A DNA stretch of 38,926 nucleotides, taken from NCBI GenBank assembly GCA_028281625.1, contig JANQJN010000123.1, forward strand, positions 1 to 38,926, given 5' to 3'. The first letter of the stretch is position 1; each line of letters begins with the position of its first letter. The position numbers and the translations under genes are program-made. The notes beneath the pieces were generated by a model that saw nothing but the letters and a program-made list of their open reading frames with translations, was not told the DNA's origin and searched no databases. Below, piece by piece: positions 26,580-29,618 of this stretch. The DNA is from Emcibacteraceae bacterium (lineage in GTDB: Bacteria; Pseudomonadota; Alphaproteobacteria; Sphingomonadales; Emcibacteraceae).

Positions 26580-28124
26580 CTAAGCCGTCATTTCTTCCGG
26601 TTTGCTTTTCTCACGTTTTACAAGCAGTTTATTTATTGCATTTAAGTAGGCTTTTGCGGATGCAACCAGTGTATCGGTGTGAGCCGCATGACCATTAACG
26701 GTCTTACCATCTTCAGCCAGACGCACGGTCACTTCCGCCTGTGCGTCCGTTCCTTTTGTCACCGCATGGACCTGATAAAGTTCCAGATCCGGCTCACCAT
26801 CAATCAAACTTGAAAGCGCCAGGAATGCTGCATCTACCGGGCCGTTTCCTTCGCTATGAACCTCCTTAACATCACCAGAAACGGCAATTTCAAATGTGGC
26901 GCTGTTTGGAACATCTTTATCACAGACAAACTTCCAGTTTGTGATCTGCATTCCGTCCATATCACGCATGCCATCATCCACAATCGCAATAATATCTTCG
27001 TCGTAGACAACTTTTTTGGCATCAGCAAGATCCTTGAATTGCTCAAAAGCGCTTAAAAATTCATTGTTGCCAAGTTCATAACCAAGCTCTTTCAACTTTT
27101 CGCTAAAGGCATGACGCCCGGAATGCTTACCCATCACCAATGTGGACTTACCAAGTCCAACGGATTCTGGGGTCATAATTTCATAGGTTTCCGCGTTTTT
27201 CAGCATACCGTCTTGGTGAATACCGCTTTCATGGGCGAATGCATTGGCACCGACAATGGCTTTGTTATGCTGCACATGAAGTCCTGTAACCGAGGATACC
27301 AAATGAGATGTCTTGGTGATATTCTCAGTAACCACACCTGTTGTGTAAGGGAGCACATCTTGTCGGGTTCTAAAAGCCATAACCACTTCTTCAAGAGAAG
27401 CGTTACCCGCGCGTTCACCAATACCATTTACGGTACATTCGATCTGACGGGCACCACCCACGACTGCTGCGATGGAATTTGCCACCGCAAGTCCCAAATC
27501 ATTGTGACAGTGAGTTGAGAATATCGCCTTATCACTGTTTGGCACATTTTCAATGATGTTACGCATCATGACCGTATATTCTTCCGGTGTTGTGTAGCCC
27601 ACAGTGTCGGGAACATTGATGGTGGTTGCACCCGCTTTGATCGCGGTCTCAATGGATTTATAGAGAAAATCCGTATCAGTACGTGTGCCATCTTCGCATG
27701 ACCATTCAACATCGTCACAAAGGTTTCTTGCATGGGAAACACTTTCCTCAATTTTACCCAGCACCGTTTCTGGTGACATATTCAGTTTATGTTCCATATG
27801 CAGCGCACTTGTGGAAATGAAGGTGTGGATGCGCGGCCGTTTTGCACCCTTCAGCGCTTCCCAGGCACGGTCGATATCCTTGATGGAGGCACGAGCCAGT
27901 GAACAAACACTTGTTTCCTTCATCAGTGCGGAAATTTGTTGCACCGCCTGGAAATCACCGTTTGATGCGATGGCAAAGCCTGCTTCAATCACGTCAACAC
28001 CAAGCTGTTCGAGCGCTTCCGCAACTCGTAATTTTTCGTTTAACGTCATGGAACAGCCTGGCGACTGTTCTCCGTCTCGTAATGTGGTATCAAAAATGAT
28101 TACCCTGTTTTTATCTGTCGTCAT
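26580..28124 (-). CDS. leuA: 2-Isopropylmalate synthase
   Basis: This 514-residue enzyme condenses acetyl-CoA with 2-ketoisovalerate, the first step of leucine synthesis. The catalytic TIM barrel shows 'FDTTLRDGEQSPGCSM' (metal and substrate site), 'STHCHNDLGLAVANS' (His metal ligands) and 'NGIGERAGNASLEEV'; the C-terminal regulatory domain (about residues 390-505) would bind leucine for feedback inhibition. AAGGAC precedes the ATG. The gene stands alone and is preceded by a leucine-rich leader peptide and attenuator. Confidence 0.97.
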   Translation of the reverse strand: MTTDKNRVIIFDTTLRDGEQSPGCSMTLNEKLRVAEALEQLGVDVIEAGFAIASNGDFQAVQQISALMKETSVCSLARASIKDIDRAWEALKGAKRPRIHTFISTSALHMEHKLNMSPETVLGKIEESVSHARNLCDDVEWSCEDGTRTDTDFLYKSIETAIKAGATTINVPDTVGYTTPEEYTVMMRNIIENVPNSDKAIFSTHCHNDLGLAVANSIAAVVGGARQIECTVNGIGERAGNASLEEVVMAFRTRQDVLPYTTGVVTENITKTSHLVSSVTGLHVQHNKAIVGANAFAHESGIHQDGMLKNAETYEIMTPESVGLGKSTLVMGKHSGRHAFSEKLKELGYELGNNEFLSAFEQFKDLADAKKVVYDEDIIAIVDDGMRDMDGMQITNWKFVCDKDVPNSATFEIAVSGDVKEVHSEGNGPVDAAFLALSSLIDGEPDLELYQVHAVTKGTDAQAEVTVRLAEDGKTVNGHAAHTDTLVASAKAYLNAINKLLVKREKSKPEEMTA

Positions 28125-28197
28125 TGACTTAAGTCCTTCGAATTCTTTGAAAATATTTTATCACATTTCCCGGGAATACAAATATAATTTTTATATG

Positions 28198-28233
28198 AAA
28201 AACCCGGCGTTTTGGAGGTTCTCCCCTAAACGC
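28198..28233 (-). terminator. leuA attenuator terminator (stem 3:4)
   Basis: On the minus strand GCGTTTAGGGG (28233-28223) pairs with CCTCCAAAACGC (28218-28207) in a stem with one mismatch and one G-T pair, followed by CGGG and five T (28202-28198). The upstream arm can instead pair with the region at 28260-28271, as expected of an attenuator. Confidence 0.65.
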
Positions 28234-28271
28234 TCGCTATTAACAGCTGATATTGGTTAAGCGTTCAGGGG
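28223..28271 (-). promoter_or_regulatory. leuA attenuator antiterminator (stem 2:3)
   Basis: On the minus strand CCCCTGAACGCT (28271-28260), which spans the leader-peptide stop codon, is complementary at 11 of 12 positions to AGCGTTTAGGGG (28234-28223). If a ribosome stalls at the leader's leucine codons this pairing can form and block the terminator. If the ribosome reaches the stop codon it covers this arm and the terminator forms. Confidence 0.65.
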
Positions 28272-28384
28272 CGACTAAGTCGACCGAGAGCAAGTAGGAG
28301 GAGAGAAGACAGAAGAAGTGCTGCGTCAGCAATAAGTGCCTGCGCATCAAAGATTTTTTCAAATTTTACTTTATGACTTTGCAT
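28265..28384 (-). CDS. leuL: leuA leader peptide (leucine-rich, attenuation)
   Basis: This is a 39-codon reading frame before leuA. Residues 23-36 read L-L-L-S-S-L-L-L-L-A-L-G-R-L: nine leucines in 14 residues, using mostly CTT and CTC with single CTG and CTA codons. A purine-rich GAAGGCGAAGAA lies before the ATG. The stop codon falls inside the antiterminator arm and the terminator lies 30 bases further on. This arrangement is that of ribosome-mediated attenuation, in which leucine shortage stalls the ribosome and allows leuA transcription. The symbol follows the enterobacterial usage; homology to that peptide is not implied. Confidence 0.8.
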   Translation of the reverse strand: MQSHKVKFEKIFDAQALIADAALLLSSLLLLALGRLSRP

Positions 28385-28457
28385 AAAATTTCTTCGCCTT
28401 CGTTTGTTTCTGATCCACCTTTTAACCTCAATTAGTTAATTTGTGAATAAGAAAAAT

Positions 28458-29618
28458 TTATTTTTTCACCACATCAAGCAAACGATCGAGAAATTTATCG
28501 CAAGCTTCAAGCTGCGAAATTTCAACAAATTCATTAGCCTTGTGGGCCTGGAGAATGCTTCCCGGACCACAGACAACCGCTGGCACACCTCCTTTTTGAT
28601 GGAAGATACCAGCTTCAGTTCCGTAGGAAACAACAGTCGTTGAGTTCTGCTCAGCCAAATGCTTCACCAGTGTTTCTGCATCCGCGCCCGTTTCCGGGAA
28701 AAGGCAGGGTACTTTCGCCAGATAATCGGTCTTAACATCACCAAATTCTGCCGACTTTTCACGCATTTTAGGTATGATGGTACCCTCAATAAATTCATAG
28801 TAGCGATTATAAATTTCATCTTCGTCCGTGCCAGGTATGGGTCGATAATCCCACTCCACTTCACAATAATTTGGCGTGATGTTTTGAACATGACCGCCAG
28901 CCATGCGCCCCACGTGGATGGTTGCATAAGGTGGATCGAAACCTTCAATCAAAAGCGGTCGCTTTCTAAATTCTTCCTGAAGTTCATCAAGGAAATTCAC
29001 AATCTGTGCGGCGTAACTCACTGCGTTAACGCCACGGTCCGTGCTTGAATGATTTTCAAGGCCGTATACTTTTGTCAGCAGATGTCTGATCCCTTTGTGG
29101 CTGTTGACCACTTTCATTGATGTTGGCTCGCCTACGATACAAGCGCGCGGTTTAATCGACATGTCATTGACCACATCAACAAGACTATGGACGCCCGTGC
29201 AGCCGGTTTCCTCGTCATATGAAAAAGCTAAGTGTAGTGGCTCCTTAAGATCTGCTTTGACAAAATCAGGGATTTTCGCAAGCACACAGGCGATAAAGCC
29301 CTTCATATCACAGGTGCCACGACCATAAAGCCTTCCATCCTTCTTGGTCATCGTAAATGGCTCAGTTTCCCAATTCTGACCCAACACCGGGACCACATCA
29401 GTATGACCACTGAGCATAATCCCTTTTACATCGGCTGGCCCGAATGTGGCCAAAAGATTAGCCTTTTCTTCATGTTTATCACGTATTATGGTCGACGAAA
29501 TACCAAATGACTTAAGATAATCTTCAACAAAATCTATCAGCTGCATATTTGATTTGGAACTGGTAGTATCGAACTGAATAAGCTGACTAAGCATCTCTAT
29601 GGATGAATATTTTTTCAT
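28458..29618 (-). CDS. argE: ArgE/DapE-family deacylase, probably acetylornithine deacetylase
   Basis: This 386-residue M20-family zinc hydrolase has 'SGHTDVVP' (His72, Asp74), 'YGRGTCDMKGF' (bridging Asp104) and 'YDEETGCTG' (catalytic Glu136, metal ligand Glu137). The lid domain follows at about residues 180-290. It should deacetylate N2-acetylornithine in arginine synthesis. Related N-acyl amino acid deacylases cannot be excluded, because many alphaproteobacteria make ornithine with ArgJ instead. The ATG at 29618 with GGAT upstream is preferred; an extended frame to 29759 runs into the divergent glycosyltransferase gene. Confidence 0.85.
   Translation of the reverse strand: MKKYSSIEMLSQLIQFDTTSSKSNMQLIDFVEDYLKSFGISSTIIRDKHEEKANLLATFGPADVKGIMLSGHTDVVPVLGQNWETEPFTMTKKDGRLYGRGTCDMKGFIACVLAKIPDFVKADLKEPLHLAFSYDEETGCTGVHSLVDVVNDMSIKPRACIVGEPTSMKVVNSHKGIRHLLTKVYGLENHSSTDRGVNAVSYAAQIVNFLDELQEEFRKRPLLIEGFDPPYATIHVGRMAGGHVQNITPNYCEVEWDYRPIPGTDEDEIYNRYYEFIEGTIIPKMREKSAEFGDVKTDYLAKVPCLFPETGADAETLVKHLAEQNSTTVVSYGTEAGIFHQKGGVPAVVCGPGSILQAHKANEFVEISQLEACDKFLDRLLDVVKK

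Follow-up and report, generated by a model that had tools for sequence, protein, structure and literature searches.

How is leuA controlled in an alphaproteobacterium of the family Emcibacteraceae? Enterobacterial leuA is a textbook example of control by attenuation. The window analysed here, a 38,926-nt stretch of DNA from an Emcibacteraceae bacterium (contig JANQJN010000123.1), contains a leuA gene on the minus strand (26580..28124), encoding a 2-isopropylmalate synthase of 514 aa (NF002087, 815.9 bits; TIGR00973, 695.4 bits). An earlier examination of the sequence had placed a leucine attenuator with a 39-codon leucine-rich leader before this gene, and the open reading frame was confirmed. 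It occupies 28265..28384 on the minus strand, has equivalents in relatives, and reads from 28384 to 28265 as MQSHKVKFEKIFDAQALIADAALLLSSLLLLALGRLSRP, with nine Leu within 14 codons (segment LLLSSLLLLALGRL) and an end of the form ...LLLLALGRLSRP-stop. The stop codon is TGA (28267-28265), and leuA starts 140 nt past it at 28124; position 28458, on the far side of the leader from leuA, is the end of an acetylornithine deacetylase gene. The leader peptide was matched by no NCBIfam or Pfam model.

The leader stop codon was found to lie within the 5' arm of a 12-bp stem, P1, as the original prediction had stated for a 12-base arm with 11 complementary positions. P1 pairs CCCCTGAACGCT (28260..28271, minus strand; arm 2 of that prediction) with AGCGTTTAGGGG (28223..28234, minus strand; arm 3) through 11 Watson-Crick pairs and one G-U pair. 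The 3' arm of P1 has an alternative partner, arm 4 (CCTCCAAAACGC; 28207..28218, minus strand), with which it can form a stem of 12 pairs, and a run of five T (28198..28202, minus strand) begins 2-3 nt beyond the end of that stem, forming a possible weak intrinsic terminator that is not conserved. In the window, stems 2:3 and 3:4 overlap and so compete with each other, and all parts of the proposed switch, including the alternative stem and its T-run, are present. A 106-nt region was more stable than its dinucleotide shuffles (z -2.44, 4/200), whereas the 3:4 hairpin by itself was unremarkable against shuffles (z -1.37). Past P1, the purine stretch AGGGGAGAA (28219-28227) hardly varies within the window's family, although just AGGGG lies within the stem. 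Its candidacy as the start site of a second open reading frame was dropped, since no start codon follows it in the loci read.

Is this arrangement peculiar to one contig? In a search for leuA in 60 related genomes, the members of the window's family were found to have a leader ending in GRLSRP or a near variant wherever the upstream sequence sufficed, with one exception (G016, L026), and the leaders of several other families of the order end in RLSCP or RLIGP. Searched against 337 genomes of the class, a covariance model (R1) built from 25 sequences found matches in 74, with leuA directly downstream at all 29 R1 loci that were fetched; three weak matches (L100, L111 and L115), having neither leuA nor leader, were rejected as false. 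A second model (R2), built from 52 sequences and searched in the 337 genomes of the class, found matches in 104. When these were crossed with the leuA positions of the same genomes, 94 lay on the same strand, 34-414 nt 5' of leuA, and none of the 104 was in conflict with a listed leuA, that is, none lay away from a detected full-length gene. The other 10 are in genomes without a full-length leuA among those listed, and most of them could be linked to leuA as well. The matches in G036, G048, G053, G302 and G381 (L087, L091, L108, L089 and L082) precede a divergent LeuA type, an assignment based on the N-terminus KYRPF and, in G036, G048 and G053, also on weak LeuA matches; in G042 a weak LeuA-like match lies just downstream of the element, and the match in G157 (L098) precedes leuA. 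The three that remain are in G083, G233 and G328. The same leader thus accompanies two distinct leuA subfamilies, standing also before the divergent KYRPF type.

In a sample of the phylum, 66 of 67 matches fell within the same class. Reading by eye revealed diverged copies in about 7 of 20 model-negative leuA upstream regions (L252, L253, L255-L257, L259 and L261), one of them being CCTCTGAGC:GCTCAGAGG, with a pair altered on both sides. In the AT-rich L261 (reverse complement, about 205-275), eight T come straight after P1, which could itself serve there as an intrinsic terminator. Among individual species, the element scored 41 bits in Methylobacterium bullatum and 19 bits in Phaeobacter inhibens, whose record lists no leader before leuA. 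Paracoccus denitrificans reached just 11 bits, yet has a leucine leader ending in LLLLTLR-stop; there (L265, 700-800), the leader sequence TCCTTCTTC is fully complementary over 9 bp to the leuA ribosome-binding region GAAGAAGGA. At the window site R2 gave an E value of 5.9e-12, the window being included in the training set of the model, and the site was the sole R2 match in its genome at E <= 0.001. Because the element is conserved, as seen in the R2 score and in a leader present in nearly every close relative whose upstream sequence is long enough, comparison of sequences confirms the leader and stem of the window as real beyond chance. No match was found in Rfam at the gathering score, and a relaxed threshold returned chance matches only. 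A literature search that included Caulobacter, Sinorhizobium, Rhizobiales and Rhodobacter, with the 2004 survey of proteobacterial attenuators outside its scope, found no earlier report of an alphaproteobacterial leuA leader.

What is constant in the element is its end. Across Alphaproteobacteria, the leader before leuA closes with CGA CUU A NNN GCC CCU GA, which corresponds to R-L-x-x-P-stop. In 52 sequences, 93.5% of P1 cells were paired, compared with 26-54% in slid controls, and two-sided change was observed at six pairs (30 cells versus 10.4 in shuffles, where the shuffles of the purpose-written scripts are mononucleotide and the loci compared share ancestry). Even the middle base of the stop codon covaries with its partner (G-C 30, G-U 13, A-U 8); over 69 loci, the stop codon is TGA in 59, TAA in 7 and TAG in 3. 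CUU occupies codon -4 in 68 of the 69 loci and CGA codon -5 in 60, and many relatives have just 1-3 Leu among the last 12 leader codons. The candidate for a constant sensor is one CUU codon and not the Leu run, but these letters may just as well serve in RNA pairing. Alignment of leuA upstream regions, which had been suggested as a check of the original prediction, bore out the conservation of arms 2:3 with compensatory changes, but not that of the long Leu run nor, beyond the genus, that of arm 4.

Does the element terminate transcription? Classical attenuation would make P1 (2:3) the antiterminator and stem 3:4 with its five T the terminator, with stalling at the Leu codons favouring 2:3 so that leuA is transcribed. 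Every arm is present in the window, including the 12-pair 3:4 stem and the T-run; most members of the 11-species genus keep arm 4 (AACGC), with 87% of 3:4 cells paired, and at the locus L008 the stem is followed by eight T. Most of the genus lacks a T-run, however, and a terminator-like hairpin with a T-run was found in 3 of the 11 species (the window and two others) and in 5 of 74 loci overall, where about 2 are expected from shuffles. By subset, the counts were 3 of 18 loci in the window's family against 0.8 expected from shuffled gaps, and 2 of 56 outside it against 1.0. Outside the genus arm 4 is missing despite retention of the leader and P1, and the 3:4 stem is no better than its shuffles. 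A simple promoter and terminator scan returned no more than the shuffled level. Classical transcription attenuation is judged unlikely. Because the 3:4 stem is mostly kept in the genus and the T-run is not, and terminator-like hairpins occur in only the 5 of 74 loci, an intrinsic terminator is possible in the window but is not general. A further hairpin, P3 (CCGGG...CCCGGG; 28169..28207, minus strand), overlaps arm 4 by one base; in the genus 82% of its cells are paired and three pairs show two-sided change. It takes the form CCGRR/YYCGG there, with compensatory changes, a variable loop length and no T-run after it.

What does the leader end pair with? The 5' arm of a second pairing, P2, is GGTCGACTTAGTC (28273..28285, minus strand), comprising the last leader codons with the nearly invariant CGACTTA. 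It can pair with the leuA Shine-Dalgarno and start region (28120..28138, minus strand; AAGGAC, spacer and start codon), of which 28136-28120 pairs. By duplex energy, the last leader codons were found to prefer the cognate stretch between P1 and leuA over the corresponding stretches of other species (p 9e-6). Plain duplex energy between the leader end and the leuA region gave no signal within the window's genus, and ensemble and alignment folding were applied for this reason. For 56 loci outside the family, the arm formed 14.2 expected pairs with the downstream stretch versus 9.5 with noncognate stretches (p 4e-9), and 5.7 versus 3.9 with the Shine-Dalgarno/AUG region itself (p 0.001). Within the family (n 13), the excess at the Shine-Dalgarno/AUG region was absent against noncognates (p 0.79), with p 0.04 against shuffles. 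The window RNA gave 9.0 expected pairs at that region versus 5.4 for noncognate and 1.7 for shuffled sequences. RNAalifold, unprompted, closed P2 over the leuA Shine-Dalgarno/AUG region in both family genera aligned. Pairing holds for 94% of the P2 cells in the genus and falls to 14-47% in slid controls; no two-sided changes were observed there, because the sequence hardly varies. In many members of the class, the downstream partner lies before the Shine-Dalgarno sequence and not on it. The alternative pairing that is predicted to be conserved joins the final codons of the leader to the sequence ahead of leuA, in many cases to the ribosome-binding site of that gene. Since the terminator is not conserved and the constant partner is this stretch, the "full logic" of ribosome-mediated attenuation claimed in the original prediction was too strong for transcription, whereas its leucine leader and its stop-containing stem with compensatory change held.

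The predicted consequence for translation is modest. The full-length window RNA folds at a minimum free energy of -49.4 kcal/mol with the Shine-Dalgarno sequence paired, and blocking the Leu codons opens that sequence in the predicted fold. Over 69 loci, the mean unpaired fraction of the ribosome-binding site was predicted to rise from 0.45 to 0.51 with a stalled ribosome, the change exceeding 0.2 in 10 of the 69, and a ribosome placed at the stop codon was found to open the site about equally (0.50). A translational output is the best-supported one, at about even odds, and is also the least certain step, statistically weak in the window's family. Leader translation might instead act on leuA through Rho-dependent termination, or through decay of the mRNA, in the untranslated gap, with P1 and P2 shaping access. 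Most loci have no intrinsic terminator and have a gap of 34-414 nt before leuA, as such a route would have it, but it leaves the preference for the cognate downstream stretch unexplained and is considered improbable.

Which promoter would serve the leader? A promoter-like sequence, TTCACA-N17-TAAAAG (28419..28447, minus strand; elements at 28447-28442 and 28424-28419), is conserved in the alignment of the 11-species genus and matches the consensus, which makes it a candidate promoter upstream of the leader. It bears on a concern raised with the original prediction, namely whether any transcript begins upstream of 28384. Between the leader and leuA lies an extended -10-like sequence, TGATAAAAT (28155..28163, minus strand; TGnTAnAAT), which may be a second leuA promoter. 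If so, the leader could govern a minor share of leuA, and in this family the gene would for the most part not depend on it. Within the genus the -10-like sequence (28163-28155) is conserved, and it can still be made out in further genera of the family, but the region is AT-rich, no clear -35 is seen, and a sigma-70 scan finds nothing on the minus strand; this explanation is regarded as very unlikely.

The reading of the element as a ribosome-read, leucine-sensing leader of leuA is well supported by these comparisons, and the element very probably serves to match leucine production to supply. The more specific proposal, a leucine-responsive leader with a P1/P2 switch whose output is mainly leuA translation, is given an even chance of being correct. 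With leucine plentiful, the ribosome would complete the leader and depart, and P1 would form; the last leader codons (GGUCGACUUAGUC in the window) would then form P2 with the sequence that extends to the leuA start, and leuA would be poorly translated. With leucine short, the ribosome would stall at the Leu codons, above all at the conserved CUU, and would cover the P2 arm, freeing the leuA ribosome-binding site. In the window and a few relatives, the weak terminator (arm 3:4 with the five T) may contribute a transcriptional layer.

How does the element compare with known systems? The enterobacterial leuL attenuator (Rfam Leu_leader) likewise has a Leu-rich leader peptide before leuA and mutually exclusive stems, as in the window. 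It was not matched here even at E <= 10, and differs from the present element, in which the terminator is not conserved, the stop codon lies within the first stem and the constant part is a single CUU instead of a Leu run. In translational attenuators of the ermC/ermB type, stalling of the ribosome on the leader exposes a ribosome-binding site that is otherwise sequestered. That working principle is alike, but the signal is an antibiotic and not an amino acid, and the sequences are unrelated.

The nearest described case, which the alphaproteobacterial leader resembles, is the actinobacterial LEU element. It has been described before leuA as a Leu-codon leader with no obvious terminator and with a base stem proposed to join the Leu codons to the Shine-Dalgarno sequence; a pseudoknot was also reported, and its authors doubted the importance of leader translation (Seliverstov et al., 2005; PMC1262725). 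The alphaproteobacterial leader also stands before leuA, has Leu codons and mostly lacks a terminator, although the window has a weak terminator-like hairpin where most relatives have none. The counterpart of the base stem would be the Leu codon-Shine-Dalgarno pairing, for which, against noncognates, the p values outside and within the window's family were the 0.001 and 0.79 given above. The LEU pattern matched more than 116 contigs, almost all of them from Actinobacteria, with Streptomyces in the majority. In ten actinobacterial loci that were read, CUUAGCUGCC enters the hairpin, and most have visible LeuA sequence downstream; these loci were picked by a LEU pattern that includes the shared motif, which makes the test circular. 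The Streptomyces copies likewise have CUUAnnnGCC at the entry of the hairpin that holds the leader's end, and one alphaproteobacterial locus (L107) has CTTCTCCTTAGCTGCC in common with them. The actinobacterial hairpin is of a different type (CCGCGGCGAGGG...CCCTCGCCGCGG), and the model match to Streptomyces loci spans the short shared motif and not the P1 arms. A broader proposal, that of a class-wide, uncatalogued leuA leader that reads leucine chiefly via the near-invariant CUU, carries its stop codon in the switch stem, frees the ribosome-binding site and has ancestry in common with the LEU element, is tentative and rather doubtful as a whole.

If the proposal is true, leuA control in a large class of bacteria takes a different, terminator-poor form with a very conserved RNA core. 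This core is absent from Rfam and its leader is skipped by annotation; the element supplies exact residues for mutation. The old, unexplained LEU element of Actinobacteria would then become testable in other organisms.
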